64,000 bases of DNA from Gammaproteobacteria bacterium (GTDB lineage Bacteria; Pseudomonadota; Gammaproteobacteria; Pseudomonadales; Azotimanducaceae). The stretch spans positions 186,001-250,000 of the forward strand of contig JAPOVK010000019.1 in assembly GCA_026708185.1 (NCBI GenBank), written 5' to 3'. The position numbers and the translations under genes are program-made. Positions 15,677 through 43,808 of the stretch are shown here, piece after piece (the first letter of the stretch is position 1; each line of letters opens with the position of its first letter). The notes below the pieces were generated by a model, which ran no database searches, was not told the DNA's origin, and saw only the letters and a list, made by a program, of their open reading frames with translations.

Positions 15677-16159
15677 TCATGCCGACGCCTCGATCGCGCG
15701 TGCCGCCAGCAACACCGCTGCGGGCGGCGCGATCGCGCACGCAACGGGAATGCCGTCGCGCAAGCCGCCGGCGGGCCGTCGGCTCGCGACGACGCACATG
15801 AACGCCAGCAGCACCGCGGCGGCAAGCAGGCCGAAGCCGACGTCTCCCGGTCCGAGCCAGAGCGCAGTGGCGGCCAGGAGCTTGCCGTCGCCGCCCCCCA
15901 GCCAGCCGAGGGCGTGGAATGCGAGCCCCGCGCAGAGCCCGACGCACCCGCACGCCAACCCGGCCAAGGGCGGCGCGCCCAAGGCCCAAGGCGCCGTCAG
16001 CGCGCTGAAACCCCACAATCCGACAAGCGCGAGCAACGCCCAGTTCGGGACCTCCCGACGCCGCCAGTCCGTCCACGCCGTCAACGTCGCCAGCGCGGCG
16101 GCAGCCCCCAGTGCCAGCGTGCCTAGCCATGACACAAGCGTCCCCGAAGGATGCAACAA
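15677..16159 (-). CDS. tadV: Prepilin peptidase TadV/CpaA
   Basis: Multi-TM A24 peptidase-like protein with LTAWTDWRRREVPNW and LGGGDGKLLAATALWLG (the GxGD-type aspartate motif appears as GGGDGK). Confidence 0.82.
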   Translation of the reverse strand: MLHPSGTLVSWLGTLALGAAAALATLTAWTDWRRREVPNWALLALVGLWGFSALTAPWALGAPPLAGLACGCVGLCAGLAFHALGWLGGGDGKLLAATALWLGPGDVGFGLLAAAVLLAFMCVVASRRPAGGLRDGIPVACAIAPPAAVLLAARAIEASA

Positions 16160-16174
16160 GCAGGTGGACGAAGG

Positions 16175-16420
16175 TCAGCTGATATCGTCACCCGCGTTTT
16201 GCGCCTCTTGGACCCCGGCATTCACCTCATCTGCCAATTGATCGAACAGGTTACCGAAAGCCCCCCCGAGAAGCGCCGCGGCAGCGCCCACGATGGCGAT
16301 CACGGCGATGACGATCAATGCGTACTCCACGGTCGAGACGGCACGGGTGTCCTTCACGAACCGGGCGACCTGGCCCCGCGCCCAGATGACGGCGCTTTCA
16401 ATGGCAGTCCTTGTATTCAT
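16175..16420 (-). CDS. flp: Flp/Fap-type pilin
   Basis: MNTRTAIESAVIWARGQVARFVKDTRAVSTVEYALIVIAVIAIVGAAAALLGGAFGNLFDQLADEV; SD GGAGAGAGGACC upstream. Confidence 0.88.
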   Translation of the reverse strand: MNTRTAIESAVIWARGQVARFVKDTRAVSTVEYALIVIAVIAIVGAAAALLGGAFGNLFDQLADEVNAGVQEAQNAGDDIS

Positions 16421-19884: not shown

Positions 19885-19894
19885 CGTCCGTCCG

Positions 19895-25172: not shown

Positions 25173-26468
25173 CTACAGGTCGGCGCCGACGGCTTCCCCG
25201 TGCTGGCTGTAGTCGAGGCCCTCGGCCTCCTCCTCCGGCGTCACACGCAGTCCCATCGTCAGCTTGATGCCGTAGAGGATCACCGCCGTACCGACCGCGC
25301 TCCACCCGGCAACGGCGAGCACGCCCTCGATCTGCACCCACACCTGCCAGATGTTGCCTTCGACCGCGCCCGACGCGTTGCCGATCTCCTCGAGGGCGAA
25401 CACCCCGGTGAGCACGGCGCCGAGAAGGCCGCCGATGCCGTGGATGCCAAACACGTCCAGCGCGTCGTCGTAGCCGAGGGCGTACTTCAGCCAGGCGCAC
25501 GCCCAGCAGCACGTGAAGCCGGCCAGCACGCCGATGGTGACCGCCCCGGCGGGTGACACGAAACCGGCGGCCGGGGTCACGGCGACGAGCCCCGCCACCG
25601 TGCCCGAGACGAGCCCGAGGACGCTCGGCTTCTTCAGCACGGACCACTCGTAGAACATCCAGGTCAGCCCGCCCGCCGCGGCCGAAGCCTGCGTGACCAG
25701 CATCGCGAGCGCAGCGTTACTCCCGGCGGACAGCGACGACCCGGCGCTGAAGCCGAACCAGCCGATCCACAGCAGCGAGACACCGATGACGCTGAATAGC
25801 GGGTTGTGCGGGGCCATGTTCTCCGCGCCGTAGCCCGTCCGCTTGCCCACGATCAGACAGGCGACGAGCCCGGCCACACCCGCGTTGATGTGCACGATCG
25901 TCCCGCCTGCGTAGTCGAGCACCCCTTCCTCCTTGAGGAACCCGCCGCCCCAGATCCAGTGGACCACCGGCGCGTAGACGACCACGGACCACAGCGCGAC
26001 GAACACCACGACGGACGAGAACTTCATCCGATCGGCGACGGCACCCGTGATGAGCGCGGCAGCAACGACGGCGAAGCCCAGCTGGAACACCACGTACAGC
26101 GACTCGGGGAACGTCCCGCGCAACGCCTCGAGGTCGAGGTCGGCGAGGAACAGCATCCCGAAGTCGCCGATCAGCTCGTTGTCCCCCGAGAACGCCAGGC
26201 TGTAGCCGACCAGGATCCAGATCGTCGAGACGACGCAGCAGATGGCGAAGCACTGTCCGGCAATGGACAGCATGTTCTTGCGGCGCACCATTCCGCCGTA
26301 AAAGAGGGCGATCCCGGGCACCGTCATCATGAGGCCGAGCACGGTCGCCATCAGCATCCACGCGGTCGTGCCGCTGTCGAGCACGGCGGGGGCCTGCGAG
26401 CCGGCCGCGGGCACGGCAGCCAGCGCGATCAACGCCGCGACCGGGGCTGCCAACAGTTTCACGTCCAT
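25173..26468 (-). CDS. amt: Ammonium transporter, Amt family (copy 2)
   Basis: TTAWMLMATVLGLMMTVPGIALFYGGMVRRKNMLSIAGQCFAI...DYAGGTIVHINAGVAGLVACLIVG...GIHGIGGLLGAVLTGVFA. Confidence 0.95.
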   Translation of the reverse strand: MDVKLLAAPVAALIALAAVPAAGSQAPAVLDSGTTAWMLMATVLGLMMTVPGIALFYGGMVRRKNMLSIAGQCFAICCVVSTIWILVGYSLAFSGDNELIGDFGMLFLADLDLEALRGTFPESLYVVFQLGFAVVAAALITGAVADRMKFSSVVVFVALWSVVVYAPVVHWIWGGGFLKEEGVLDYAGGTIVHINAGVAGLVACLIVGKRTGYGAENMAPHNPLFSVIGVSLLWIGWFGFSAGSSLSAGSNAALAMLVTQASAAAGGLTWMFYEWSVLKKPSVLGLVSGTVAGLVAVTPAAGFVSPAGAVTIGVLAGFTCCWACAWLKYALGYDDALDVFGIHGIGGLLGAVLTGVFALEEIGNASGAVEGNIWQVWVQIEGVLAVAGWSAVGTAVILYGIKLTMGLRVTPEEEAEGLDYSQHGEAVGADL

Positions 26469-26833: not shown

Positions 26834-28744
26834 ATGTCCTCGCGGTTGACGTGTATGGGTGCAAGATGCAAGGTAGCAACTCCCCGTCCCGGAGCGGGAA
26901 ACCGCGACACGTTGACCCCTGCCGAACAGAATACGTTGCCGACAGGCTACCGTCTGCTCGGCCAATACGAGATTCTTGAGGCGACGTCCCTCGGCGTTGC
27001 CAGCGTGAAGTACACGGCCGTGGCCGACGATGGCCGCGTGGTCGTGGAGGAGTACTTTCCGCCGCGGCTCGCCGTGCGCCTCGATACAGGCGAGGTCGGC
27101 GCGGATCCGCGTCGCGCAGAGGAGTTCGAGGCAGGTCTCGCGGCGTTTCTCGCCACTGCGAGGCTGCTCGCCGGCGTGAACCGGGAGACCGTGGTCGCCG
27201 TACGCCAATGGACAGACGCGAACGGCACCGGCTACTTGGTAACCCGGGAGGTCGAGGGCGAAACGCTCGGCGGCCGTCTGGCACCCGACGGGACGTTGCC
27301 GCCCGACGAGATCGAATCCGTGTTCAGCGTGCTCGTCGACGGGCTGGAGGCGGCGCACGCGGCGGGCCTCCTGCACAGGCAGATCAGTCCCGACGCCATC
27401 CTGCTCCGAACGGACGGCGTGCCGGTTCTCCGCGATTTCGGCGTCGGTACGGAGGTCGCGCGGTCGGCGCGCCAGGTGTTCCGGCAGCGGCACCGGAGCC
27501 GCGCGAACATCGTGCCCGGCTACGCCGCGCTCGAGCAGTATTCTGACCTCGGCCGAGAGGGGCCGTGGACGGACGTATACGGCCTTGGGGCCGTCCTGCA
27601 CCGTTGCGTATTTGGCGCTGCGCCCGATGACGCGCCGTTCCGCCAGGTCCGCGGCGACACGGCACCCGCCGCCCGTTTCGAGGCATCGCTTCCGGACCGC
27701 ATGCGCGCGGCCATCGACCAGGCCCTCGCACTGCGGATCGCGGCACGGCCGCAGAGCCTGCCAGCCTGGCGGGGCATGCTCTTCGAGACCGCCTACCGGA
27801 GCTCGTCCGCAGTCCGCGCGGGACGCACCTCTGCGCGCGGCTTCGGTCGCGCCTCCTCCGTGGTCGCGGCGCCCCAACGTACGCAGCAGCCAGTGCACCG
27901 CGGGAGCCGGGCGTCGGCGGATCCGGAGCAGCCACGACGCGCGCTGCGCTGGGTCGTGCCTGCCGCGGCCGCGACGGCCTTGACGGCGTTCATCACCTAC
28001 GTCGACACCGGCGTGCTGCGCGGCCATGACGCCGCAGACGCAGCGCCCGCGGTGCCGCGCGGCAACGACCCTTCGGAGCCGTTCACGGACGAGATGCGCT
28101 CGGGTGGCTCGGGACCCGCCATGCGCGTCGTCGAACAGGGCGCTCTGCGCACCGGATGCGCCGGGGCGGACTGCCCCGAGAGTGCCCCACCGCCCCGCAC
28201 CGTGACCGTCGAACGACCGTTCGCGCTGTCCGCGCGCGAGGTCACCTTCGAAGAATACGACCGATTCGCGGCTGCCGAGGCGCGAGCGCTGGTCCAGCCG
28301 GCGGCCTGGTCGGGTGCCCATCCGGTCGTCAACGTGTCATGGGACGATGCCGCGGCGTACGCCCAGTGGCTGTCCGCGGAGACCGGGCAAGCCTACCGGC
28401 TGCCCACCGAAGCCGAGTGGGAGTACGCCGCACACGCCGGCGCCGCGGACCCGCCCGGCGAGCCATCGGAGGCGCCGATGCCTTCGCCCAATCCCGCAGG
28501 CGCCGGGGCGGCCAACCCGTGGGGATTCCACGACATGGCGGGGAACGTCTCCGAGTGGGTCGCCGACTGCGTCGCCACCGCCGGGGCCGACAGCGCCGCG
28601 CGAGACCCCGCATGCTTGCGCGTCCGCCGCGGGGGCTCGTGGATCCACGGATCGAATGCCGATGTCGCCGTACGCGATGTAGGACCGGCCACGCGGCGCG
28701 CGCTCGACACGGGTTTCCGCGTCGCTCGAGCGGTGGACAGCTAA
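26834..28744 (+). CDS. Transmembrane pseudokinase fused to periplasmic FGE-sulfatase-like domain
   Basis: YRLLGQYEILEATSLGVASVKYTAVADDGRVVVEEYFPPRLA (kinase N-lobe, Lys position is Glu), GLLHRQISPDAILLRTDGVPVLRDFGVG (HRD is HRQ, DFG kept), one TM (WVVPAAAATALTAFITYVDTG), C-terminal VTFEEYDRFAAAE...VNVSWDDAAAYAQWLSAETGQAYRLPTEAEWEYAA...WGFHDMAGNVSEWVADC...RRGGSWIHG. Start uncertain. Confidence 0.82.
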   Translation: MSSRLTCMGARCKVATPRPGAGNRDTLTPAEQNTLPTGYRLLGQYEILEATSLGVASVKYTAVADDGRVVVEEYFPPRLAVRLDTGEVGADPRRAEEFEAGLAAFLATARLLAGVNRETVVAVRQWTDANGTGYLVTREVEGETLGGRLAPDGTLPPDEIESVFSVLVDGLEAAHAAGLLHRQISPDAILLRTDGVPVLRDFGVGTEVARSARQVFRQRHRSRANIVPGYAALEQYSDLGREGPWTDVYGLGAVLHRCVFGAAPDDAPFRQVRGDTAPAARFEASLPDRMRAAIDQALALRIAARPQSLPAWRGMLFETAYRSSSAVRAGRTSARGFGRASSVVAAPQRTQQPVHRGSRASADPEQPRRALRWVVPAAAATALTAFITYVDTGVLRGHDAADAAPAVPRGNDPSEPFTDEMRSGGSGPAMRVVEQGALRTGCAGADCPESAPPPRTVTVERPFALSAREVTFEEYDRFAAAEARALVQPAAWSGAHPVVNVSWDDAAAYAQWLSAETGQAYRLPTEAEWEYAAHAGAADPPGEPSEAPMPSPNPAGAGAANPWGFHDMAGNVSEWVADCVATAGADSAARDPACLRVRRGGSWIHGSNADVAVRDVGPATRRALDTGFRVARAVDS

Positions 28745-29082
28745 CCGCAGCGGGCGGGCGATCCGCGGTCGCCAGACGGCACGGCAGCACGGTCGTACGG
28801 CGCCGACAAGGGAGCGCGGTGTCTTCGGGTGCCGCCCCATCGCGCAGCCGGAGTTGCGTTGACGAATGTCTCACGGGTATTGTGGCGTCAGTCGCAGTTG
28901 CAGGACGACCGTCGGATTGCTAAGCCGAGGTCGCTGCAAGCTAGGGCAACCGCATCCACCGTTCCGTGGCGTGCAAGTGAGGATCGGCAAAGCGGCCGCG
29001 AGAGCACGTTCGACATCGGGGCGGGCGCTCCTGGCCACCGTGCGCCGGCGACATCGATTTGACGAAGGTAAGGAGGCAAGTT

Positions 29083-31827
29083 TTGGACTGCAGACCGGAC
29101 AATTCGGGCCGGAGCCCGTTGGCCGGCCCCATCGGGGCCGCCGTCGTCAGCTTCGCGGCGCTCGTCGCCGCCGGGGTTGAGCTCGAGCCCGTGGAGGCGA
29201 CCGCCCCATCGGACGGCGAACCCCTAGAGACGCTTGAGAGCATGATCCGCCACGCCGAACTGGTCGTGACCGCGGAAAAGGTCGAGGAAGACATCCTCGG
29301 CCTACCGATGACGATCACGGCGTTCGACGCCGACATGCTCGAGCAGTTCGTACTCCAGGACCGCCTCGATCTGCAAAACCTCGTCCCGGGGCTGCAGTTC
29401 GGCGACGAAATGGACCAGGAAGGGCAAGGCACTGTCATCCGCGGAATCGGCACGCGGCTTGCCGGCCAAACCCACACCGACCGCGCCGTGGCAACCTACG
29501 TCGACGGCGCATACACCATCGGCCTTTACGGCACCTTGCCGGGGGGCGGCTTCGACCTCGAGCGCATCGAGGTCGCCCGCGGTCCGCAGGGCACGCTCAA
29601 CGGCCGCAACTCCATCGCCGGGTCGGTAAACCTCGTCTACAAGAAGCCGACGCCCGAGTGGGACGCCGAGATCATGACCGAGGTCACGGACGTGAGCCAG
29701 CAGCGCGTCAACGTCGCCGTCGGCGGTCCGATCCGGGGCCCGCTGAGCTTCCGGCTCACCGGCGGCGTCCACACCGGGGACGGGCGGCAGGCGAATCTAG
29801 GGCTCGGCGATGACTACGACCGGCCCGACCACAGATTCTACGCGCCACAACTTCGGCTCACGACCGAACGGTTCGACATGAACGTCCGGGCCTCGCGGGT
29901 CGAGGACCAAGGTTCGTCGCGGTCGCTCGTGACGCTCAACAACCTCAACACGACCGATCCGTTCGTCACTCTGGGGCCCCAGGGCAGCCAGACCGCCCCG
30001 CCGCCACCGGGCAGCGAACCCGTGCCGAACGAACTGTATCGCTACGCGACCCCGAACCCGGCCATCGACGCCAGGTGTCCCGTCGGGGTGCCCGGATTCA
30101 AGTGCGGCGACATCGAGAACAAGGTCGCGCTCAACTTCACGGGCCGCCAGGAAAGCCAGGCCGACCAGGTGAACCTCTATGCGCAGTACCGGCTGACCGA
30201 AACCCTGAGCGTGCGCTACAGCTTCAACCGCAACGACGTCAGCATGGTCAACATCAAGGACGGCGACTACGCGAACCGCGTCGCGACACCGACCGACCAC
30301 ACCGTCGCGGCGGACGGCATGGTAAGCCCGTTCGACGACACGCACTACGTTTTGCCGTACATCTACGACGAGGCTTCGCACGAACTGCAGATCACCTCGG
30401 ATTTCCCTGGCCGGTTCAACTTCATTGCCGGCCTATTCGCCTACGACAACACCACGTTCTGGGATCTCGTTCGCGTCGACCAGACGCGTTCCTACCGGTT
30501 CGGCACAGCGGACGAACAGGCGCGGGCCGCATCACCCATCTTCGGGTTCGTGCCGGTCTCGGGCTGCCGGGACGTCCTGACGAACGTCATCGAGGCGTTC
30601 GGAATCGGCACCAGTGATCCGGCGCAGGCCGGCGACTGGGAAGGCCTGTACTGGTATTGCCCGGCGGGCACCGAACACACGAGCACGGTGCGTTTCTACA
30701 CAGGGGCCGACTCCAAGACGCAAGCTGCTTTCGCGACCGGCACTTTCGCATTGAGCGAGCGTTGGACGGTCTCGGGCGGCTTGCGCCACACAGCCGACGA
30801 GAAGGCGCAGAAGCCCGAGGAAGGCGGCGGATTCGCCCTGTTTGAGGTCGGTTCGCTGCTCGGCGTGTTCTTCCCGAACGGCGGCACGCCGGATGCGCAC
30901 ACCTGGGACCGCCTGATAGGACATGTCAGCCTCGAGTACACGACCGAAGCCGACAACCTGCTCTACGGGCGCGTGTCAACCGGCTACCGATCCGGCGGGT
31001 TCAACAGCCCGATCCCGGGGCTCGAGGTCCCGTTCATCGAAGAAGAGACCCTGGTTAACTACGAGGTCGGCGCCAAGGGCTTGTATCTGGACTCACGCCT
31101 GCGCTTGACCGTCGGGCTGTGGCGAGCGGACTACGACGGCTTCCAGTTGAACGGCAACCAGCCGCCCCGCGAGGGATTCCATCTGCCGGTGTGGTCGTCC
31201 ACGCCGCTGGCCGAATACACGTCCAACATAGACGACACGACGCTGTGGGGTGTGGACGTGGAGTTCAGCCACCTCATCAGCGAGCGCTGGCGATTGAGTG
31301 GCTTCTATGCTTTTCAAGGTTCGAAGATCGGGCCGCACTCCTCGGTGATCTGGGCAAACCCCAACGCCGAGTACGGGCAGTGGGACCACATCGATTTCGA
31401 CACGGGCCAGCCGACAACGAGCCCCTATCCACTCGCGACCGACATGACGGGCAACGAACTGCCCATGCAGCCGGCGCATAAGCTGACCCTGACGCTCGCA
31501 CACGAACGGCCGCTCGCCAACGGCAGTCGCCTCAACATCCAGACGAGCTATGCGTTCACCGGCGCTCAGCACCCGAACATCGCCAACGTCCGGGACTACG
31601 AGATCCCCTCCTATGCGCGCTGGGATGCGAACGCGATGTGGACCTCGGCCGACGAGAGTTGGTCCGTGCTCCTGTTCGCACAGAACATCCTCGACCAGAT
31701 AGGCTTGGTCGAGTTCGTCCCCGTGAGCGGCATCGGCGGCAATCCGGCGCTAGGCTATCCGACGAACCATCGCGAGATCGGTCTGCAGTTGCGCTACCGG
31801 CCACTCGGGAAACGCACAGGCCCCTAA
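29083..31827 (+). CDS. TonB-dependent receptor
   Basis: Plug domain (EDILGLPMTITAFDADMLEQFVLQDRLDLQNLVPGLQFGDEM...FDLERIEVARGPQGTLNGRNSIAGSVNLVYKKP) and barrel; SD AAGGAGG before TTG at 29083. Confidence 0.9.
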   Translation: MDCRPDNSGRSPLAGPIGAAVVSFAALVAAGVELEPVEATAPSDGEPLETLESMIRHAELVVTAEKVEEDILGLPMTITAFDADMLEQFVLQDRLDLQNLVPGLQFGDEMDQEGQGTVIRGIGTRLAGQTHTDRAVATYVDGAYTIGLYGTLPGGGFDLERIEVARGPQGTLNGRNSIAGSVNLVYKKPTPEWDAEIMTEVTDVSQQRVNVAVGGPIRGPLSFRLTGGVHTGDGRQANLGLGDDYDRPDHRFYAPQLRLTTERFDMNVRASRVEDQGSSRSLVTLNNLNTTDPFVTLGPQGSQTAPPPPGSEPVPNELYRYATPNPAIDARCPVGVPGFKCGDIENKVALNFTGRQESQADQVNLYAQYRLTETLSVRYSFNRNDVSMVNIKDGDYANRVATPTDHTVAADGMVSPFDDTHYVLPYIYDEASHELQITSDFPGRFNFIAGLFAYDNTTFWDLVRVDQTRSYRFGTADEQARAASPIFGFVPVSGCRDVLTNVIEAFGIGTSDPAQAGDWEGLYWYCPAGTEHTSTVRFYTGADSKTQAAFATGTFALSERWTVSGGLRHTADEKAQKPEEGGGFALFEVGSLLGVFFPNGGTPDAHTWDRLIGHVSLEYTTEADNLLYGRVSTGYRSGGFNSPIPGLEVPFIEEETLVNYEVGAKGLYLDSRLRLTVGLWRADYDGFQLNGNQPPREGFHLPVWSSTPLAEYTSNIDDTTLWGVDVEFSHLISERWRLSGFYAFQGSKIGPHSSVIWANPNAEYGQWDHIDFDTGQPTTSPYPLATDMTGNELPMQPAHKLTLTLAHERPLANGSRLNIQTSYAFTGAQHPNIANVRDYEIPSYARWDANAMWTSADESWSVLLFAQNILDQIGLVEFVPVSGIGGNPALGYPTNHREIGLQLRYRPLGKRTGP

Positions 31828-32416
31828 CAGGCAGGCCGGTGGTAGTAGACCGCCGGCCAGACGCTGCCCGCGTGAAGGCGCGGTCCAGCGGCGAAGCGCC
31901 GGAGGATGCGTACTTGGCCGAGGTGGCGGCACACGCCGTTGGCGCTCCTCCCCGGCGTTCGAGGATGCGCTGGTGTCCGGATGTGCCCGGACACCGCTCC
32001 TTGTGCGCCGCTGCGGCGGTGGCTGAACGGATGAACGGATCGAGCTACTCTCTCGATGTTGATCGATTGCACGCGGTTTCGACCACGGTAGATCCGAGCA
32101 CGGATACCCAACCAGTCTGAAGCGCAAGCCCCGTCACTACCGGACTTTGGTGAGCAGCGGCAAGCCACGTCGCGGCGCACAATCTGGCCGTGCGCGAATC
32201 CGGAAGCGACGGGGCGCGAAACGGCGCTGGCGCGCAGCGGCCGCGCAGGCTGATACACACACTCCCTTGCCATCCGGTACGCGCGAAGATATGTTCGCGG
32301 CTGACGGCGACGCTCCCCCCGAGAGCGCCGCGACTGCAACGGATAGTCGGCGGCGGGCACAGGCATGCGGATAGGCTCGCCACCCGGTGGTTCGGACACG
32401 AAGGCAAGGACTGCGA

Positions 32417-35271
32417 ATGGCCGACGACATGACTCTGACGGTCGGACACCGTCTCGGACCCTACCGGGTTGCGCGCGTGCTCGGACGCGGCACGTTCGGC
32501 AACGTCTACCTGTGCACCGACGATGACGGCCGCGAGGTGGTTCTCCGCGAGTACATGCCGCGCGGACTCGCGGTGCGTGGCGCGGACGGCCTCGTGCGGC
32601 CACAAGTGCCGGCTGCGGAGGCGACATTCAGGGCGGGACTCACGGGTTTCGTGGCGCGGGCGGAGCGCATGGTCGCCGTTGCGCATCCGAACATCGTCAG
32701 CATCCATCGGGTGTTCACCGCGCGCGGCACGGCCTACGTGGCGATGGACCACGTCCCCGGGACCTCGCTGGCCGCTTCGCTGGGCCCTGCGGAGACGCTG
32801 CCGCCGAACCGGTTGGCGGCAGTTCTGCTGCCGGTGCTCGACGGCCTGCAGGGGATGCATCGCGACGGCCTCGCCCACGGCAGCATCGGCCTCGGCAGCA
32901 TTGTCGCGCGGGACGACGGAACCCCCGTCCTGCTCGGCATCGCGGTGCCCCCCCAGAACGAGTTCGGCATGGTCGCGCGCCCGAACTACGCCCCGATCGA
33001 GCGCCATTCGGCGCAAGGCAGCCTTGTCGACCAAAGAACTGACGTCTACTCGATCGGGGCCGTCATGTACCGCTGCCTGGCCGGTTTACCGCCGCCCGAG
33101 GCGCCGCTTCGCGCGGAACGCGACACGCTTGTTCCAGCCGCGCGCGCCGCGGGCCGGCGCCGCGGCTACAGCGACGCCCTCACAGCCGCCGTCGACGCTT
33201 CGCTCGCGGTCCAGCCGCAAGACCGCCCGCAGAGTCTCGACGGGCTGCGCGCCGCGCTCGCGGCCGCCGTGGAGAAGCCGGAACCCGCCGACGCGCCCGA
33301 GCAGGGAGGCAGCCCCAAAGACGCCGACGAGCAGCAAGACGCCGGTCGGTCACATCGCGTCGCCGGTCGCCGCGGTCGACAGCCGGGGGCTACGGTCAAG
33401 GTGCCGCGCGTGCGCGCCGCTGCCATCGCGGTCGCTGCTGCCGGCGCGCTGCTGGTCGCCGGCATAGTCCTCTTCCGAACCGGCGACGAACCCCGATCAG
33501 CGCACGAACCGCCCCCGGTGGCCGCGCAGCCGACCGCCGTCGACGCCCCTCCCGAGATCCAGCCGGTTACGACGGAGCCGGCGGCCACTGCGGACCCGGT
33601 ACTGGAACCCACGCCCGGGGAGGACGATACGCCGAGCGTGACCGAGGTCGCCGACGCTCCCCCGTCCACGGAGGACGACCTTCCCGTGCTTCCGGCTACG
33701 CTCGTCGTCGAGACGGTGCCCCGGGGCGCCCGGGTGCTACTCGACGGCGAGGACATCGGCGAAACACCGCTCATCGCGTCTGTGCCAGAGGGTGACCACA
33801 TCGTGACGCTGCGGCATCCTCTGTTCGACACGCTGGAGTTGCCCGGCCAAGCCCTGACGCCGGGCGAGGAACTGCGGATCGAACGTGAACTGGTGCGGGC
33901 AACCGGCGCACTGCGACTCACCGGTGCCCCCGCTCACGCCTGGATTGAGTACGACGGCCGCCGCCTAGCCGACGCCTTGCCGACGACGCTCGAGGGGATT
34001 CCGACCGGCACCGTCATCCTCGAGGCGGGCGCGGACGGCCATGATTCCGCCACGATCACCGTCGAGGTGCGGCGCGATGCCAGCGAAACGGTGGAAATTC
34101 AACTCCAGCGCATGTCCGGCACGCTAACGTTGGTTCTCGACCCCGCGGACGCCCGCGTGCTGCTGGCCGACGGGGCAGGTCCCTACCTGCCAGGAATGGA
34201 GATCGCTCATGGGACGCATCGCGTCGACGTATCCAGCGACGGCTACCGCACGGCGTCGAGGACCTTCGAGGTGGCGGGCGCGACGACGATTGCGGTGACG
34301 CTAGAACCGGTACTTGAGCCCTTGACGATCCTGACCGACCCCGGCAGCGCCGCCGTCGGGTTCGTGGATGCCCCGCTCGCTACGTCGACGGCATTCTCGT
34401 GCCGCCCGGCGAGTACGCGCTGCGCGCGACACTGCCCGGCTACGCACCCTGGTCCGGCACCGTCCGACATGCCGACGCTCCGACGGTGCACGCCGTCACG
34501 CTGGAGTTCGTGTCCGCGCAGTACGCTGATCCGCTTCGCCTCGGTGGCAGCGGCCCGACCATGGCGGTCGTTCCGGCCGGTAGCTTCGATCTGGGTTGCG
34601 GCAGCGACCCCGCGTGCGCGGCGGCCGGGGATACGCCGCAATCGGTGAACTTCGCCGCCCCGTTTGCCCTGTCCATGCACGAGGTGACCTTCGATGAGTT
34701 CGACCGCTTCGCAACCGCGACGGAGCGAACGCGGCCGGACGACGCCGGCTGGGGCCGCGGCAGAAGGCCGGTGATCAACGTGTCGTGGCACGACGCGTCG
34801 GCATACGCCGGTTGGCTTTCCGAGCAGACCGGCCGGGATTACCGTCTTCCCACGGAGGCGGAGTGGGAATACGCGGCGCGTGGGGACACCGCAACGGCCT
34901 ACCACTGGGGAGATGTCGCTGGCAGCGGCCAGGCCAATTGCGGCGACTGTGGGGGCCGCGCCGCCGGGCGCACGCTTCCCGCGGGATCGTTCGCCGCCAA
35001 CGCCTGGGGGTTGCACGACATGCACGGCAATGTATGGGAATGGGTCCAGGACTGCTGGAACGCCCGCCCCGCCGTTTCACCGCCCGACAACGCCACAACG
35101 ACCCGGGAAGACTGCGACAGGCGGGTCCTCCGCGGCGGCTCGTGGTTGAACTCCGCCGAGTACGCGCGCTCTACAAGCAGGCTGAGCGGAAACGCCGATG
35201 TGCGCGGCACCATCGCGGGCTTCAGGGTGGCCACACGCGATCTCTCTGGCGTCGGCGTAGAACGACCCTGA
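32417..35271 (+). pseudogene. Pseudokinase-TM-PEGA-FGE-like fusion interrupted by a single -1 frame break near 34371-34374
   Basis: LGPYRVARVLGRGTFGNVYLC; VVLREYMP; HRD replaced by AHGS; DFG replaced by LGI; TM VRAAAIAVAAAGALLVAGIVLF; PEGA-like repeats (LVVETVPRGARVLLDGEDIGETPLIASVPEGDHIVTLRHP). One added C in the CCCC run restores GFVDAPARYVDGILVPPGEYALRATLPGY and reads into the FGE-like ORF ending at 35271. May be an intact gene if the break is a sequence error. Confidence 0.75.
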
Positions 35272-35387
35272 CGGACTTGCCAACGGCGACCATTGGCGGC
35301 GCTTTCCCGCTCCCTGGCTCGCGGAACTCTGCCTTGTTCGCGGCTGGACGCAACGCAACGCTGCGTCGCGCTCGGAAGGTCGTCAGA

Positions 35388-37142
35388 TCAGGGTCGGTAG
35401 CTAAACTGGATCGGCTGCATGACCCGCTGCGCCAAGCGGCAGTCCGTGTCCGTATCGGAGATGAACTGCCACGACCGGGCAGCCCGGATGGCTGCGCCAA
35501 GGAACCGGTTGAAATGCCGTGGTACTTCCGCGCTAGACCTCGACCTGACGACGGCAATGCTCTCGTCCAGCGTCTCGCCCCGGCTGTCGACCAGGAAGCT
35601 CAAAACCACCGTCGCCTCGCCCCGGTTCACGTTGTACGGATAGGGAGGCATGGCATTCGCTGACGCGTGGGCCAGCCGGCACACTGGATCTGGGCCTGCG
35701 CCAGTGGCCAGCGACGAGTCGACGGGCGGCGATCCCTCGGCGGGAGGAGTTGTCACAGAAGCTGCCGATTGGGGGGAGGCGCCGCTGCCCGCGGGAGGCT
35801 CAGGCAGGGCCGCGGCAACGACGTCCGTCGGGATTCCCGGATCTGCGAGTTCGGCGTCCCCGCCTAGCGCGGCCGACGCCTCGGAAGGGCCTCCCGGGGA
35901 TAGGACCACGCTCGGCGACGACGCACTGGCAGCAAGCGCCTGGGACCCGGAGGCAGGCTCGGGCACCTGTTCGGGGACTGGACCATCCGCGGCCTGGCGC
36001 TCTGTCGCCGCTCGTTCATCGAGTGCGAGCTCGCGCGCTTCGAGCGCCGCAAGGCGTTCGCGGTAACGTCGGTCCCGGTCCTCCGACTCCTCTGCCAGGC
36101 GCCGCGCCTCGGCGTCGAGCGCCGCCTCGCGCTCCGCGATCTGGGCTAGCCGGTCACCCTCGACCTGGGCCGCCGGTTGTACCGGTTCCGCCGGGACCGG
36201 TTCGGGCGGCACCTCGCGGATTGGTTCGTAGCGCGGCTGCACGGCGTAGGCGAGGCTAGGCGGCTGGTCCCGGAAACTCACCGCCGATCCGACGAAATAA
36301 GCGCGCCAGAAACGCTTGTGTAGAAGCTCGGAGCCCGGCTCGTCCGTGAGGCCCATCCGCGGCAGATAGAAGATCGTCACTGGCGGGCCCGTCGACCGCA
36401 AGCCGGACGACGCACGCGTCGCGGCCGCCTTCCGGTAGTTGTCGAAACCCCAGCCGTCCGGGCCTGCGTCCAGGTGCGAGAACCAGTCGGAGTGGTGAAG
36501 CATGTCGGAGAACACGTAGAGCGCCTTGGGCGGGGGCCGCGCGGGCCCGCCGCGCAAGGACGCTTCGAGTGCGTCCACCAAAGGCGCATCCGAGACGGGT
36601 GTTCCGGCGTCCGGTGTCTGGATGCTGTTCAGACGCTCGCCGAGCGCCGTTCGCCGCTCGCAGAACCGGACAGCAAGGTCGCGCGTCGCCCGCGGCAACT
36701 GCCCTGGTAGGTCGTCGCAATCGCGGTGGCGCGCGGTCTGGTCCTTCGCGGTCGGCACTTGGAGATCGGCGTTGCGATAGGGCTTGCAGATCCGACCGAC
36801 GAACCACAGCGGCTCCGCGGGATCGTCCTCGATCGTGTACACGCGCAGTTCCGCATGCGCCGCCAAGCCAACCGTCACATGCTCGAGCAGCAGCCCGGGG
36901 AGCTCGGCGAGATCGGCATCTAGCGGCTTGCTGACATCCACGAGAAACGCTGCCCGTTCGCCGGTATCGCCGGTCACGGGACAGAAATCCTCGTCGAAAG
37001 TACTCGGGTTGGAGGCCGGACCGGTTGCCAGAAACAACACCAGGGCCACCGCAGCCGATCCGAGGAGCACGATCGGTGGCCAGACTCTGCCGCCCCGCTT
37101 GCGGGCCGACATGGGCTTCGCGTTCGTCGCGGACGGCGACAT
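35388..37142 (-). CDS. Membrane-anchored VWA-like, coiled-coil, TonB-C-like protein (paralog A)
   Basis: N-terminal TM (VWPPIVLLGSAAVALVLFLATG), RAAFLVDVSKPLDADLAELPGLLLE...KALYVFSDMLHHSDWFSHLD, coiled coil (LAQIAEREAALDAEARRLAEESEDRDRRYRERLAALEARE), C-terminal GEATVVLSFLVDSRGETLDESIAVVRSR..FNRFLGAAIRAARSWQF. Confidence 0.68.
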   Translation of the reverse strand: MSPSATNAKPMSARKRGGRVWPPIVLLGSAAVALVLFLATGPASNPSTFDEDFCPVTGDTGERAAFLVDVSKPLDADLAELPGLLLEHVTVGLAAHAELRVYTIEDDPAEPLWFVGRICKPYRNADLQVPTAKDQTARHRDCDDLPGQLPRATRDLAVRFCERRTALGERLNSIQTPDAGTPVSDAPLVDALEASLRGGPARPPPKALYVFSDMLHHSDWFSHLDAGPDGWGFDNYRKAAATRASSGLRSTGPPVTIFYLPRMGLTDEPGSELLHKRFWRAYFVGSAVSFRDQPPSLAYAVQPRYEPIREVPPEPVPAEPVQPAAQVEGDRLAQIAEREAALDAEARRLAEESEDRDRRYRERLAALEARELALDERAATERQAADGPVPEQVPEPASGSQALAASASSPSVVLSPGGPSEASAALGGDAELADPGIPTDVVAAALPEPPAGSGASPQSAASVTTPPAEGSPPVDSSLATGAGPDPVCRLAHASANAMPPYPYNVNRGEATVVLSFLVDSRGETLDESIAVVRSRSSAEVPRHFNRFLGAAIRAARSWQFISDTDTDCRLAQRVMQPIQFSYRP

Positions 37143-37629
37143 CAACGGCACTTCGCTTTTCGGTAGATCATCCCTCCCCCGGAACCATCTTGCCCACAAC
37201 CGCTGCCGGTTGCCCGGAGTCTACCGGCATGCCGCGCACCTGTCAGCCCCCGACACTGGGGAGCAGGACCTGTTACGAGACCCGCGGTCCATTCCAACAC
37301 GGAGATGGGCCGGTAGAGGGGCGGTTCCGGATCCAGTAGGGGCCGCCGGGCTGGCTACCGATGGGGTCGCTCGTTGCCATCCCGCACGAGCCGGCCCTTG
37401 GGCAAACGCGGACCCGTCACGCCCTCTTCGGGTCTTTCATGGGCGTCGGCACGCCACCTGCCGCTTCCATGAACCTCTAGGGCGATCGACTCGCCACGGA
37501 CAAACGGACCCGCGCGCCACGGCCAAGGCACTCCCGTGCCATGGTCGTGCGCAGCGCCGGGCCGTCGCGCTGTTGGCCGCGAGCTTGCCTCGGGATCCGA
37601 TCCAATGCCCGAGGCGGGCTCGGGATCAA

Positions 37630-38835
37630 TTACGGCGCGTAGGTGAGCGTCAACCAGGCCTTGGTCGTGTCCGTCGCGTGAGCTTCGGCGCGGTACCGGG
37701 CAAGCTTGCCCTGCACGCTCAGCCGCTCGTGCACGAACGTGGCCGACACGCCGGCTTCCTCCCCGTAGTCGATCCCGCCGTGCCAGGACCGGTAGGCGTG
37801 CAGCGTCCCCGCGAAGGTCACCTCCCCGACCTTGGCAGACGCGGACAGATAGGCGTCCTTGAGTCCCGCGGCAGGCTTGACCGCGGCGAACTTGTCCGCC
37901 CAGCCACGGTAGATGTGCTCCGCTCCTATAGGCGTCTGCACCGCGGCAACGCCGTCGTCGCTGCCGAGCGCCTCCCAGCCAAGTGTGAGCTTCGCGCGAC
38001 CCACGTTCCGTCGCATTTCGAGCGCGTAGCGCGGCGCACTGTACGAGATCGGGGCGTCCCCCCAATCCTGCTGGCGCCCAGCCGACGCGGACAGGCCCCA
38101 GCCGCCGAATGTACCGGCGTAGTCCAGCCCGGCCGTGGCACTGGAGTTCGCCGGGCCGTTGCCGTTCTCGAAGTCGAGCAGGTAGGCGAACGCGCCGAAG
38201 GCGTGACCGGCGGCGGGCGTGAGCGACGCGCGGAAAAGGTGCGAGTCACCAGACCAGGTATCCGGCTGGGGCCCGTCGCCGGGGCCGAATATGCGATTCA
38301 CGCGATTGACGTAGGCGTAGTCCACGCTCGCACGGTCGCCGGCCGCCTCGATGCGCAGGGCGTCGAAACTCTGCTCGTTCTGGCGCCACGCCTTGAAGCC
38401 GACGAAATGCTGGCCCGCATGCGCGATGCGCTGGCGGCCCGCCGAGACGGTGACGCGGCTATTGCGGTACCGCACGAAGGCCTGGTTCAGGTCGAAGCCG
38501 ACGGGATCGGCAACCACCGGGTACTCGGTTCGGCCGTTGACCGTGGAGTTGTACTTTTCGGACCCGAGACTGGCTACATAGTCCGCCTGAACGCCTAACG
38601 AGAGACCTTCGGCGGGCGGCATCACCCAACCTAGGCGAAGGCGCGCGGTTGATGCGGCCGATTCCCGCGCGAATCCTTCCTGGTCAACCGTCTCGAACCG
38701 GTACCGGACGCCGAACATCGGCGTGGTGTCCTGCGCCCTCTCGCGGAATCCGGCCGCAGCAGGCACCGCGACACCCGCAACCAGGGCCCCGGCGATGAGC
38801 GCGACCGGCGCGAGGGCAACCGCTCGGACGCCCAT
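37630..38835 (-). CDS. Outer-membrane porin, alginate-export-like beta-barrel
   Basis: Signal peptide; FGVRYRFETVDQEGFARESAASTARLRLGWVMPPAEGLSLGVQADYV...VSAGRQRIAHAGQHFVGFKAWRQNEQSFDALRIEA...YVNRVNRIFGP. Confidence 0.75.
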   Translation of the reverse strand: MGVRAVALAPVALIAGALVAGVAVPAAAGFRERAQDTTPMFGVRYRFETVDQEGFARESAASTARLRLGWVMPPAEGLSLGVQADYVASLGSEKYNSTVNGRTEYPVVADPVGFDLNQAFVRYRNSRVTVSAGRQRIAHAGQHFVGFKAWRQNEQSFDALRIEAAGDRASVDYAYVNRVNRIFGPGDGPQPDTWSGDSHLFRASLTPAAGHAFGAFAYLLDFENGNGPANSSATAGLDYAGTFGGWGLSASAGRQQDWGDAPISYSAPRYALEMRRNVGRAKLTLGWEALGSDDGVAAVQTPIGAEHIYRGWADKFAAVKPAAGLKDAYLSASAKVGEVTFAGTLHAYRSWHGGIDYGEEAGVSATFVHERLSVQGKLARYRAEAHATDTTKAWLTLTYAP

Positions 38836-39881
38836 CAGGCGTCCACCGCTTCCGACATACTGTCGAGGTTCGCGATGACCAGGAGGACCTGGCGGAACAC
38901 GTCCGTCGGCACCTTGTTGCGAGGTATCGGGCGCGTCTCGCGGGGGATGTTGATGTCCAGGTGGTGCTTGATCCGCGTCATCTCGGCGAGCAGCATGTTG
39001 GTCGCGTCGTACACGACCGAAGGCGTGACGCGCACCAACGTCACGGTTGGCACGCTTGACGCGTCCATGCCGAGTTGGGTCTGCAGATTGACAATCTTGT
39101 AGCTCGCCCGCAGGACCTGCTGCGCCACGTCCTTCGGCGTCTTCCGGCCCTCGACGGGCGGCGCCTCCCGCGCGAGCGGCGCGCGCAGCCTGGCTGCGAT
39201 CAGTTCCAGCTCGTCCAGGATGTACTCCACGTTCAGGTACACGTCGTTCGGCGTCAGCGACCGCCCCGCGAGCCCGTCGAGAAGGAACGACGCGTCGGAT
39301 AGGTTCTTGTAGACCATCGACGGCGTCTTGCCCGTTTCGAATGGCGCGGCCGCGATCTCTTCGGTGATCGCCATCTGCGCCTTGACGGCACGCAACTCGC
39401 CAATGATGGCCGCCACGCTCGCCAGCACGTCGGCGGGTTGGACCTCCTTGATCGGGATCTGCCCAATCTGCGCCGGCGACACACCCCAGCGCTGCTGCAT
39501 ACGGGCCACTTTGGACATCACCTCGAGCGTCTTGGCATAGACGTGGACCGGCGCCCGGTCCTCCTGGAGCTCCGCCTCAGGCGGGTAGTCGTCCGCGCCG
39601 AGTTCCCGGCGCAGGATCTCGATCTCGGCGACGAGGTCGCGCGTTGCACGGAAGACATGGCTGGGCGTCACCGTGTCGCCCTCGCTTGTGCGGTCGAACC
39701 AGTCCGCGACCGCGTCGATCCAACCGCCCGCGTTCTCCTGGGCTTGCACCGTTCCCCCGAAAAGGGGAACGCAGCAGGACAGGACGGCCAGGTACCCGCG
39801 AATCGCCTTCGTCGACCTGCGACCGCATCGGCTGGTCCGATCTCTGCCCACCGCTCGTTGCTCGTACCACATTTGGCTCAT
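38835..39881 (-). CDS. Exported helical-repeat protein with eight xPxxV-initiated units
   Basis: SD TAGGAG before ATG at 39881; signal-like GYLAVLSCCVPLFGGTVQAQ; repeats beginning TPSHVFRATRDLV, APVHVYAKTLEVM, QPADVLASVAAII, TPSMVYKNLSDAS, TPNDVYLNVEYIL, TPKDVAQQVLRAS, TPSVVYDATNMLL, VPTDVFRQVLLVI. Stop and porin start overlap as TGATG. Confidence 0.8.
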   Translation of the reverse strand: MSQMWYEQRAVGRDRTSRCGRRSTKAIRGYLAVLSCCVPLFGGTVQAQENAGGWIDAVADWFDRTSEGDTVTPSHVFRATRDLVAEIEILRRELGADDYPPEAELQEDRAPVHVYAKTLEVMSKVARMQQRWGVSPAQIGQIPIKEVQPADVLASVAAIIGELRAVKAQMAITEEIAAAPFETGKTPSMVYKNLSDASFLLDGLAGRSLTPNDVYLNVEYILDELELIAARLRAPLAREAPPVEGRKTPKDVAQQVLRASYKIVNLQTQLGMDASSVPTVTLVRVTPSVVYDATNMLLAEMTRIKHHLDINIPRETRPIPRNKVPTDVFRQVLLVIANLDSMSEAVDA

Positions 39882-40502
39882 TATTGATCTCCTACTGAGC
39901 TGTTACCGGGAGAGGGGCTCGGATTTCGGGCTTGGCACCTCACAAGTGTCGTCTTGCGCGCGCGAGGCTTGCGTACACCCGGGTGCGACTGCAGCCGTGT
40001 GGTTTTCGGGTCTCCCCCCGCGACGACGATGCAACCTAGCAAGAGATCTCGACCTTGGCAAGGCTGAACGTGGTGCGGCTCTCGGGCAGTACCAGCGGGC
40101 GATCAGCGTGCCCGAGGTCCTCTCGCGGACGCAGGTGCCGTCGCCCACGAACGAACAGCCGCCGCACCCATGGTTTGGACAGCCCGCCAAGCGTGCGCGA
40201 CGCCGGTCTTGCGCCGTAACGTACCGCCCGCCGGAGAGTCCCGTCCTGAAACGAAGCTGCAACCGGACGCGCCCGGCGGAAATCCAGGTTCGCGCGGGAC
40301 GACCTCCTCTGGTCCTCCTCAACGTCGCAAGCCTACGGGCGGCACGGTCCGCGAACGGCCCGGCACCAGCCCCTCAGCCCGCGCGCCGCTCCGGGGGCGG
40401 CTCACCGCGGTCGGAAGACGCCGGCTGTCTAGTCATTCGATAAACAACACCGGCCGCACGAGGCGTTGCGAGCCTCGCAGCGGTGCCGTACAGTGAGCCG
40501 CG

Positions 40503-42263
40503 TTGTCGCGCTCGACGCGATGGCGTTGCATCCGAGTAGAGGTCCGGTGTGCCGGGCCGACCTTGCGGCGGCACTGCGGAATGCGGCTGGATGGTACGCC
40601 TTCATGGACACCACGTTGGACGAAGCAATGCGGCACAGTACAGGCAGCGTTGGTTGCCTGTGCCGTGCGCGTCCCAGTTCTCGACGACGGCGGCGCAGAG
40701 GGGCCACCGTCATCCCCGACTACCGATGAGAGTGCTCCGCCAGTGGCCAGGCCCCTGAGCGAACGCGCGGCCCCCTTCGCCAAAGGTGTCTGGTGGGTCG
40801 GCTCGATGCTGGCGATCACGACCACCGTCGTGATCCTCTGGCAACGCGATGCCACGCCAGGCGCGCCTGATCCTTGCCTCGACGCGCCGGACACGGCCCG
40901 GGCGGAGATCCTATTCGATCTGACCAAGCCCGTGCGACCGGGGACGCTGGCGACCGGGCTGCTCGACGTGAGCCGACGGCTGCCGACCGGGGTCGAACTC
41001 CATATCCGCGCCGTGGTGGCCGCCAACGCGCCAACCACATTCCTCGGCGGGTTGTGCAGGTCCTACGACAACGAGGCGCTGCAGGTGACGACCGCCAAGG
41101 ACGGGCAAGCCGCGCCGCGCGACTGCCAAGACCTGCCGGCACAGCTTTCGCCGGCCCTCCGCGTGGCGGCGTCGGCCTATTGCACGCGCCGAGCGGCGGT
41201 CGCCGGGCGCCTCGAGGCGATGGCGGCATCGGAACGCCCCGTCGACACCGCGGACCTCATGGGCGCGATCGAGCGGTCCGTGCGTGAACTCGGCGCAGGG
41301 ACGCTTTTCATCGTCTCGGACATGCTCCAGCACACGACCGCGTACTCGCACCTCGACCTGGATCCCACGGAGTGGGCGTACACTGATTTCGCGGCTTCGC
41401 TCCCTGGACCGCCCGGCCCACGACCGCCCGGGTTGCGCGTTCACGTGCTGTACACGCCCAGGTTGGGGCTGACCGATGCACCACGGGCGTCGGCAGCGCA
41501 CCGGTCCTTCTGGCGGGCGTACTTCGACCCGGCGGACGTTGTCTTCGAGGACCGCGCGCCGCTTCCTGCCTACGTGGCAACGCCGCGCATGGACATCGAG
41601 GGCGAAGCGGCAGCCGTGGCGCAGCAGCGAGCGGAGATCGAACGTCGATACCGCGATGCTGCCCAGGAGCTGGCACGCGTCCTCGACCAGACCGAAGCGC
41701 TCACCCGCGAGAACCGCGACACCGCAGCGGCCAACGAAACGCTGGCTGCGGAGGTCGCCGACGTTCGTCGCAGCCGACTCGCCGCTACGGCCGAACGCCA
41801 CAGTCTGCAGGACGAGTGGGCCAGTCGGGTGGCCAGCGACGACGACCCATCATGGCAATCGGAATCGCTTCGCGTGGCCGCCGACACCGCGTGCAGCGTG
41901 CGCCTGCGACCGGAATTCGCTGCCGACCTGGACCGGGAACGCTACCTGGGTGGCCGCGGCGCGAACTACGGCGCCGGGGAGATCGTCGTCCGCTACGCGG
42001 TCAGTGCCGATGGCGTGCCGCTGGCGGCAACGCTCGTCGTCGACCGCGACCGCTCGGCCGCGACCCGCCCGCAACACTTTGCCGCACTCGCCGCGGACGC
42101 GACGCGGCTGGTGGGCAGCTGGCGCTTCCAAGTCGATTGCGCGCCGACCGCGGGGGTCGGCACGAACGGTTACGCCGCGGAGGCGACGGTCAGCTATCGC
42201 TTGGACTGCGTCGGCGCGCCGATACCGGCCTGCCGCACGATGTTTGCCGACGCTGTTCCCTAG
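40503..42263 (+). CDS. Membrane-anchored VWA-like, coiled-coil, TonB-C-like protein (paralog B)
   Basis: Same architecture as paralog A: TM GVWWVGSMLAITTTVVILW; AEILFDLTKPVRPGTLATGLLDVSRR; LFIVSDMLQHTTAYSHLDLDPTEW; LYTPRLGLTDAPRASAAHRSFWRAYF; C-terminal GEIVVRYAVSADGVPLAATLVVDRDR...LVGSWRFQVDC. True start probably downstream of 40503. Confidence 0.68.
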   Translation: MSRSTRWRCIRVEVRCAGPTLRRHCGMRLDGTPSWTPRWTKQCGTVQAALVACAVRVPVLDDGGAEGPPSSPTTDESAPPVARPLSERAAPFAKGVWWVGSMLAITTTVVILWQRDATPGAPDPCLDAPDTARAEILFDLTKPVRPGTLATGLLDVSRRLPTGVELHIRAVVAANAPTTFLGGLCRSYDNEALQVTTAKDGQAAPRDCQDLPAQLSPALRVAASAYCTRRAAVAGRLEAMAASERPVDTADLMGAIERSVRELGAGTLFIVSDMLQHTTAYSHLDLDPTEWAYTDFAASLPGPPGPRPPGLRVHVLYTPRLGLTDAPRASAAHRSFWRAYFDPADVVFEDRAPLPAYVATPRMDIEGEAAAVAQQRAEIERRYRDAAQELARVLDQTEALTRENRDTAAANETLAAEVADVRRSRLAATAERHSLQDEWASRVASDDDPSWQSESLRVAADTACSVRLRPEFAADLDRERYLGGRGANYGAGEIVVRYAVSADGVPLAATLVVDRDRSAATRPQHFAALAADATRLVGSWRFQVDCAPTAGVGTNGYAAEATVSYRLDCVGAPIPACRTMFADAVP

Positions 42264-42554
42264 GCGTGTCGCCCGGCAAGGCACCCAAACTCGGGACCGC
42301 GGAGCCCGGCCCGCACGCCCCACAGGGGTGGGCGTCCCGGGGAAGGGAGCTGCGGGGCGGTGCGGGCGCAGGCGTGGTCAATCACGCCGGGGCTGGTGGC
42401 TCGGCTCAGGGTCCGGCGAGAGCAACCCGCCATAGAACTCCACGGCTATCAAGTCCGACCGTCAAGGACCGGCTCGACATCCTGCGCACACTCCACCCCT
42501 GTGCGAGCCGTCCCCGTCGACGGTGACGCCGGCATCACCCTGCGATTGTCATTT

Positions 42555-43430
42555 TCAAAGTGCGCCGAACGACCGGCTCACAGCCAGCCCGAAGACGCCC
42601 GAGGCGGCCGTGTTACGGCCGTCGATGACGCGCGAGTGGAACGTACTGACGCCGAAGCCGCCCACGTTGAAGAAGGCCCTGACGCCGATGGCCTGGTGGT
42701 CCTCGTCGAGTTCAGGGAACCTTGCCGGCGTGAAGTCCGGCGCGCCGATGTCGAGTTCGCCGCGCGAGTCGACGAGGCGATAGTCGAGGCCGATCGTGAC
42801 CACGCCACCAACAAGCCAAAGGGCCGCGAGGTTGGCGAACCACTCCGACGGTATGTCGCTCTCCCGGTACCGCTGGCCAACCTCACAGGACAGGCCGAGG
42901 CGACCGGCGAAGAACCGGCCAACGATCGCCGAGAACTCGTAGCCGCTTCCACCGTCGCCCAGCGAGTTGATCTGACCGGTCTCGTAGTCCCCGGACGCGA
43001 TGCCACCAAGTCGGACGGCGATCGACGGGACGGCTCCCATGGTCTCGTCGGTCAGGCGCCGGGTGATGCCGACGCTCGCGTCGGTCATGCCGCGAAAGCT
43101 GGCCGACATGGTCGGGATCCCGGGCCCGGTCACAAACTCGCTTCTCGCCCACCCGGTCTGAAGGTCCACGGCCCAGCCGTCGGCGAGCGCGTAGTTCGCG
43201 TTGATCCACACGGTCCCCTGCGACAGGTCCGCGGCACCCGGGGTCGGACGCTTTCGATCCGCGGCGTAGAACTCGTCCGCGGACTGGTGGACGAGCGAAA
43301 CGCTGACATAGCCGGATCCGGGCTCGGGCAGCCAGGCAGTGCCGTCGGCAGCCGCGGCGCTGGTCAGCAGAAGAACCAGACACGCGGCCAGGCCTCCGGC
43401 ACGGCCTACGGAGACTCGTTCGAACATCAC
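42555..43430 (-). CDS. Exported outer-membrane beta-barrel protein
   Basis: Signal peptide (GGLAACLVLLLTSAAAADG) and alternating strands ending SRVIDGRNTAASGVFGLAVSRSFGAL. Confidence 0.65.
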   Translation of the reverse strand: MMFERVSVGRAGGLAACLVLLLTSAAAADGTAWLPEPGSGYVSVSLVHQSADEFYAADRKRPTPGAADLSQGTVWINANYALADGWAVDLQTGWARSEFVTGPGIPTMSASFRGMTDASVGITRRLTDETMGAVPSIAVRLGGIASGDYETGQINSLGDGGSGYEFSAIVGRFFAGRLGLSCEVGQRYRESDIPSEWFANLAALWLVGGVVTIGLDYRLVDSRGELDIGAPDFTPARFPELDEDHQAIGVRAFFNVGGFGVSTFHSRVIDGRNTAASGVFGLAVSRSFGAL

Positions 43431-43439
43431 ATTGGCTCC

Positions 43440-43808
43440 CTACAATCTGTAACGCCGGGCAAGGTATGCCCGCACAGCCGCCACGTTGGCGACCGCTTCC
43501 TCCGGGTTGTCGCCGAAAAGGACTCGGATGTGTAGATCGTCCGAGAGGTTCTGCCCGTGGTCGGACAGCGCCGTGTCAAGACTTCGCTTCAGTTCGCGTG
43601 CCCGATCCCGGTTGAAACCCCGGCGTGAGATGGGGCACTTCCGGCACACCAGCTCCCGGAAGAGCAGTCGCTTGCCGAGCGTGTACGCGCCGCGTTCACT
43701 CAAGGGACCCATACCAGGTCCGACCGAACCAGATCCGTGGGCGGAGGCGGTTGCGAGATGCACGACCACTCCAAGCACAATGCCCCAGAAAACACCCTTT
43801 GCCATCAA
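43440..43808 (-). CDS. Small exported protein with one CxxC motif
   Basis: MMAKGVFWGIVLGVVVHLATASAHGSGSVGPGMGPLSERGAYTLGKRLLFRELVCRKCPISRRGFNRDRARELKRSLDTALSDHGQNLSDDLHIRVLFGDNPEEAVANVAAVRAYLARRYRL; 10 nt from the barrel gene. Confidence 0.65.
   Translation of the reverse strand: MMAKGVFWGIVLGVVVHLATASAHGSGSVGPGMGPLSERGAYTLGKRLLFRELVCRKCPISRRGFNRDRARELKRSLDTALSDHGQNLSDDLHIRVLFGDNPEEAVANVAAVRAYLARRYRL

Follow-up and report, generated by a model that had tools for sequence, protein, structure and literature searches.

Degenerate PpkA-like kinases and VWA membrane proteins linked to a Tad pilus superlocus in uncultured Gammaproteobacteria

Introduction

The window analysed here, a stretch of 64,000 nucleotides from an uncultured gammaproteobacterium, encodes within 17 kb two transmembrane proteins that join a kinase domain to an FGE-like domain and two paralogous VWA membrane proteins. 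Are these genes, with the receptor, barrels and small exported proteins among them, a system of their own for envelope sensing, as an original prediction from the sequence had it, or do they belong to something larger? The host bacteria are probably sponge-associated, judging by the names of their genome bins: RHO, IRC and COS correspond to Rhopaloeides, Ircinia and Coscinoderma, sponges sampled in PMC8163846.

Genes of the 17-kb interval

A check of open reading frames, with Pfam for the kinase, FGE and TonB receptor domains, finds the genes named in the original prediction about where it had placed them. They are, in order:

26912..28744 (+), predicted pseudokinase 1 (PK1): cytoplasmic PpkA-like kinase domain, one transmembrane segment, periplasmic FGE-like domain (Pfam, motif alignments)
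29119..31827 (+), TonB-dependent receptor (Pfam), a singleton in neighbour clustering
32417..35271 (+), predicted pseudokinase 2 (PK2): kinase domain, transmembrane segment, PEGA repeats, FGE-like domain (Pfam, motif alignments)
35388..37199 (-), VWA1: transmembrane helix, VWA-like domain without MIDAS, long helix, disordered linker, TonB-CTD-like domain (AlphaFold, Foldseek, family alignment)
37630..38835 (-), outer-membrane beta-barrel (porin) with a weak Alginate_exp match just below the Pfam cut-off, a loose companion
38835..39749 (-), exported helical-repeat protein of repeat type TPxxVYxxxxxLLxEL, a loose companion that has a core orthologue across the genus
40743..42263 (+), VWA2, a paralogue of VWA1, about 31% identical (family alignment)
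42555..43427 (-), OMP2, outer-membrane beta-barrel, paired with the CxxC gene
43440..43808 (-), small exported CxxC protein, paired with OMP2

Pfam gives no match for VWA1, VWA2, the helical-repeat protein, OMP2 or the CxxC protein. The start codon of VWA1 is uncertain, at about 37142 or 37070. The two kinase-FGE transmembrane proteins that had been predicted are both present, but PK2 is not one intact open reading frame and also carries PEGA domains that had not been mentioned. Its kinase and PEGA domains occupy 32417-34648 and its FGE domain lies in another frame at 34399-35271 (Pfam, open reading frame map). A paralogue on contig C3 of the same genome is an unbroken kinase-PEGA-FGE protein, which places a single-base frameshift near 34380 (34370-34400) in the window gene. 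The frame beyond the shift is intact, which points to a recent lesion or an assembly error.

Kinase and FGE domains without catalytic residues

Among solved structures, PpkA, a kinase of type VI secretion, comes closest to both kinase domains (E about 1e-37 to 1e-38). In PK1 the VAIK lysine is replaced by glutamate (VVVEEYFP), HRD reads HRQ and the following asparagine is alanine; DFG is kept with its aspartate. In PK2 the lysine has become arginine, HRD reads HGS, the following asparagine is serine and DFG has turned into GIA with loss of the aspartate. Both proteins lack the combination that marks an active Ser/Thr kinase, the VAIK lysine with the HRD Asp/Asn, and the same losses are seen again in the close homologues examined from elsewhere. 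To judge by these residues the window kinases are PpkA relatives that have lost their catalytic residues, that is, pseudokinases. A third subfamily of the PK family retains the lysine and the catalytic-loop aspartate, so some members, as far as sequence can tell, could be active. The degeneracy of the window kinases and of the close homologues examined makes signalling by scaffolding in place of phosphorylation, as originally proposed, a reasonable idea.

The FGE-like domains match PF03781 (E 8.9e-55 and 3.1e-36) and thus belong to the FGE-sulfatase fold family. The nearest solved structure to FGE2 is PvdO. FGE2 lacks the catalytic cysteine pair, and GGSWLNSAEYARSTSR stands at the C-terminal cysteine segment of FGE; in a motif alignment FGE1 likewise lacks the FGE cysteines.

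A role in anti-phage defence was considered and rejected: the PADLOC matches of PK1 are general kinase matches and the VWA proteins have no PADLOC match at all.

A VWA protein with a TonB-like end

The AlphaFold model of VWA1, built from 49 homologues (mean pLDDT 81), consists of a transmembrane helix, an alpha/beta domain (39-266), a helix of 62 residues, a disordered stretch of about 85 residues and a second alpha/beta domain at the C terminus. In Foldseek the first of these domains matches VWA domains (Sec23/24, ITIH1, RPN10, vWF A1 and integrin I; best E 8.4e-4) and the second matches TonB C-terminal domains (CTDs; 6fip, TMt 0.65; 9dc4_T, 0.74; 6i97). For VWA1, this model supports the VWA and TonB-C-like folds that had been predicted for the two paralogues. 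The MIDAS motif DxSxS is absent from the family alignment, where the first motif has the consensus DLRKP with an invariant aspartate and no serines.

The protein resembles TonB in its transmembrane anchor, disordered linker and CTD fold and differs from it in having an entire VWA domain plus a long helix between the anchor and the CTD. VWA proteins of this family occur in two forms, a long one with the TonB CTD and a short one without it.

In Caulobacter, Tad pili sense surfaces, and the VWA-bearing minor tip pilin CpaL is a candidate mechanosensor (PMC12607857). The window protein is not a minor pilin of the CpaL/TadG kind: in the VWA1 model no pilin fold is seen, and the transmembrane helix leads into the VWA domain with the N-terminal pilin module missing.

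A Tad pilus superlocus and a roadblock pair

The left part of the window carries the following genes:

9754..11670 (+), TadD-like TPR and SPOR protein
11691..12785 (-), gene at the CpaE/TadZ position, named by synteny only and not identified by Pfam
13261..14640 (-), CpaC/RcpA secretin (PF00263, E 1.6e-38)
14637..15572 (-), RcpC/CpaB (PF16976, E 2e-20)
15677..16135 (-), TadV-type prepilin peptidase (PF01478)
16175..16420 (-), Flp/Fap pilin, the Tad major pilin (PF04964, E 2.5e-5, under the curated cut-off), adjoining TadV
16647..17942 (-), second ammonium transporter Amt (Pfam E 3.4e-107), adjoining the Flp pilin
25173..26468 (-), ammonium transporter Amt (Pfam E 4.7e-117), a recurrent neighbour of roadblock and pseudokinase genes

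The Tad genes among them make up half of a Tad (type IVc) pilus set that is complete in the superlocus, comprising secretin, RcpC, prepilin peptidase, Flp pilin (by its sub-cut-off match), TadA ATPase and TadB/TadC platform. The genome has two Tad loci, one on C3 and the other split between the window and the stretch to its left. Just beyond the left edge of the window lie a VWA gene and two roadblock genes, followed by tadC, tadB, tadA and tadGFE-like genes. The limits originally drawn for the cluster, 26.8-43.8 kb, are therefore too narrow: Tad genes stand at 9.7-16.4 kb, VWA, roadblock and the remaining Tad genes lie left of the window, and the two Amt genes stand on either side of the stretch that separates the window's Tad genes from the pseudokinases.

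An exported protein of 2569 aa with Ig-like repeats, possibly an adhesin, is encoded where the Tad locus is divided into its halves (window 3-7709, -). A gene pair containing glycosyltransferases adjoins Amt and Tad genes at both Tad loci of the genome (window 18250-21754; L122:16874-19999).

A family of proteins of 130-330 aa encoded next to VWA genes has the Roadblock/LC7 fold, alpha-beta2-alpha-beta3-alpha (AlphaFold pLDDT 85). The best Foldseek matches of the model are 3kye (Roadblock/LC7 of S. avermitilis), MglC and MglB. There are two roadblock genes for each RcpC gene in 11 of 11 genomes tested, with four roadblock and two RcpC genes in the window's own genome. They split at 100/100 support into two clades, one on the Amt/pseudokinase side and one on the tadC side, and the two paralogues are ancient. 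In nine genomes, no GTPase of MglA size is found among the matches to PF00025 (Arf model), which are confined to open frames of 459-972 aa that resemble translation or ribosome GTPases.

At most superloci Amt stands next to the long roadblock genes or to pseudokinase genes, which could mean that Amt is the sensor, with roadblock, pseudokinase and VWA proteins relaying the ammonium state to the pilus or envelope. Amt is a common gene, however, and no fusion of Amt with a signalling domain was seen; this link to ammonium strikes us as very unlikely.

Co-occurrence, linkage and descent

The VWA family proper is present in 9 of 98 related genomes; G015 and G051 have a distant form only. Roadblock genes occur in all nine VWA genomes and in none of the other 89 (Fisher p 6e-13, uncorrected for kinship). 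Within the genus the division is 7/7 against 0/9 (Fisher p 9e-5, again uncorrected for kinship), and it is the same for the Tad marker RcpC. Outside the genus, Tad is also present without VWA. UBA6724, which holds the distant VWA form only, yielded neither RcpC nor roadblock genes. The in-depth sampling covers two genera.

The PK family is found in 8 of the 9 VWA genomes against 3 of the 89 others. A VWA gene is found within 20 kb of 13 of the 14 PK genes (0.43 expected) and of 14 of the 20 roadblock genes (0.5 expected), a comparison that assumes uniform gene positions and is inflated by tandem duplication. PK1 homologues adjoin other VWA genes in neighbour clustering, and on the VWA-bearing chromosomes of G463 and G464 RcpC lies between two roadblock genes. 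Among the VWA genomes, G010 has an absent or fragmentary pseudokinase; in G021 the pseudokinase is unlinked to VWA. The linkage of Tad, roadblock, VWA and pseudokinase genes is well supported. Pseudokinase and VWA families thus keep company across genomes instead of occurring independently, and are physically linked, which bears out the expectation that the duplicated, paired families form a functional module.

The composition of that module is another matter. The strict companions of VWA are the two roadblock proteins and the Tad pilus, which the original prediction did not name, and the 17-kb gene set that it listed is not the unit. A self-contained envelope-stress system made of the listed genes is rejected, since these strict companions fall outside its interval; sensing linked to the pilus fits better than sensing of envelope stress.

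In a tree of the core helical-repeat orthologue VWA-positive and VWA-negative genomes are intermixed, with about five changes needed (one gene, modest support); the VWA-positive G000 and the VWA-negative G007 pair at 100/98 support. VWA-positive genomes are not a clade, so the Tad/roadblock/VWA set seems to have been gained or lost as a unit. Such a history would also suit a shared mobile or host-adaptation island, in which the Tad, roadblock, VWA and pseudokinase genes would be gained or lost as a single block and have no joint function. Nine of the 16 genus members lack the whole set, and the region also holds unrelated genes such as those for glycosyltransferases and varied TonB receptors. 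On the single chromosomes of G053 and G012, by contrast, the parts lie up to about 1 Mb or more apart and the set is still complete, with two roadblock genes per Tad locus; between genomes, moreover, the order of the superlocus is scrambled while its content is kept. We consider an island without joint function unlikely.

Looser companions

The TonB receptor, helical-repeat and CxxC proteins had been counted as parts of the system. In neighbour clustering the receptor is not conserved at other VWA loci, and the helical-repeat and CxxC families are common in the genus also without VWA, which makes them companions and not core. At several loci the porin gene pairs up with that of the helical-repeat protein, and CxxC/OMP2 pairs also emerge from the clustering of VWA neighbours. 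The module is more loosely accompanied by all of these, the TonB receptor, the porin and the helical-repeat, OMP and CxxC proteins. A core single-copy helical-repeat orthologue (G000:C33:13456-14328, L102) is kept in nearly the whole genus, without VWA.

The TonB-CTD fold modelled for VWA1, and the presence of TonB-dependent receptors close to several VWA genes, would be in line with an alternative TonB: VWA proteins that mainly energise nearby receptors or barrels, under regulation by the pseudokinases. The neighbouring receptor family differs from locus to locus, however, the short VWA forms have no TonB-like domain, and no receptor is strictly linked, as against the strict link to Tad and roadblock genes. 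Energy transfer as the main function is accordingly improbable in our estimate.

A possible mode of action

The reading that we prefer, at about even odds, is that the window set forms the VWA/pseudokinase arm of a signalling module accessory to the pilus of the Tad superlocus, serving trans-envelope sensing by scaffolding and not by phosphotransfer. Its core parts would be the Tad pilus, the two roadblock paralogues of the tadC and the Amt/pseudokinase end, the VWA-coiled-coil-(TonB-CTD) membrane proteins and the PpkA-like FGE/PEGA pseudokinases. While the linkage of these parts is well supported, the mechanism is one that we infer.

From an anchor in the inner membrane the VWA protein would span the periplasm by means of its long helix, disordered linker and TonB-like tip, reaching an outer-membrane partner, either secretin or barrel. 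The FGE domains of the pseudokinases would bind a ligand in the periplasm or at the surface. The VWA protein and the pseudokinases could change state when the pilus and envelope make contact or come under load; the cytoplasmic pseudokinase domain would then pass the signal to the roadblock pair by binding rather than phosphorylation, and the roadblock pair would control the pilus base. Signalling by binding or conformational change is suggested by three features taken together: the loss of kinase residues, the absence of an MglA-type GTPase and a long VWA-TonB-CTD architecture that could reach across the periplasm. The most specific version is a tentative one that we hold to be rather doubtful: a Tad pilus with a phosphotransfer-free trans-envelope pathway, in which VWA-TonB-CTD bridges and FGE pseudokinases sense contact or load and exert their effect by way of a roadblock heterodimer that operates without a Ras-like GTPase.

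Surface sensing by Tad pili and the transfer of the signal across two membranes are stated to be poorly understood (PMC12607857). The module suggests a new way to carry a contact signal across the envelope, with named and co-inherited candidates for a trans-envelope bridge, a periplasmic sensor and a cytoplasmic relay. A further suggestion is that dead kinases, with roadblock proteins, can take the place of phosphotransfer. As the genomes look sponge-associated, the module may bear on the hold of a symbiont on its animal host.

Comparison with known systems

No equivalent module was found described in the literature. PpkA/TagR, MglA/MglB and CpaL are the closest working analogies, and none matches by membership. 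TagR has an FGE-like fold and P. aeruginosa PpkA a VWA domain. In type VI secretion TagR acts in the periplasm as a regulator upstream of PpkA (PMC10482370). The window kinase domain is nearest to PpkA among solved structures; in contrast to the PpkA-TagR pathway, kinase and FGE-like domain here share one chain, the kinase is degenerate and the linkage is to Tad.

The roadblock proteins share the Roadblock/LC7 fold with the MglA-MglB/MglC module and the Streptomyces conservons, from which the present set differs in the lack of any MglA-type GTPase found in its nine genomes. MglA/MglB governs the assembly of type IV pili in Myxococcus (PMC9481161). Roadblock proteins are not mentioned in those Tad-pilus papers that were searched for the word.

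The Caulobacter Tad/Flp pilus with CpaL/TadG has in common with the superlocus a complete Tad set, a VWA fold in a pilus-linked protein and proposed pilus-based surface sensing (PMC12607857, PMC13170226). Unlike CpaL, which has a MIDAS motif, the window VWA protein has neither that motif nor a pilin module, and it ends in a TonB CTD. A Tad pilus can also serve contact killing, as does the Kil system of Myxococcus with its modular TadG-like tips (PMC12075869). By analogy the present pilus might be predatory and Kil-like, with VWA, FGE and barrel proteins as contact or delivery parts, a use to which we assign a low probability.

Other settings of the VWA family

In a collection of 84,980 species the VWA family was found in 18 assemblies, all of them gammaproteobacterial MAGs; one of these, UBA6724, has just a distant form. 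A class-wide search gave mostly matches to the TonB CTD only, and a distant VWA form. Some VWA copies are found at a great distance from Tad genes, next to an operon with a histidine-kinase-like gene and MauG, so the family has more than one setting. Short VWA forms often follow MauG and DAHL-type histidine kinase genes. The kinase in this operon with MauG and short VWA (L046:10682-12280; relatives at L034, L044, L047, L048, L061, L065 and L076) has an intact ATPase domain and no conserved phospho-acceptor histidine.

The distant VWA form is found in an operon with MotA/TolQ-like and MotB/ExbD-like membrane proteins (L098:7412-12279, L099:6681-9000, L100:8574-13148). The MotA-like part shows a weak match to ZorA of Zorya, and at L100 NERD-like and methyltransferase-like genes are seen nearby by eye. 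This operon is possibly an undescribed motor-type defence system.
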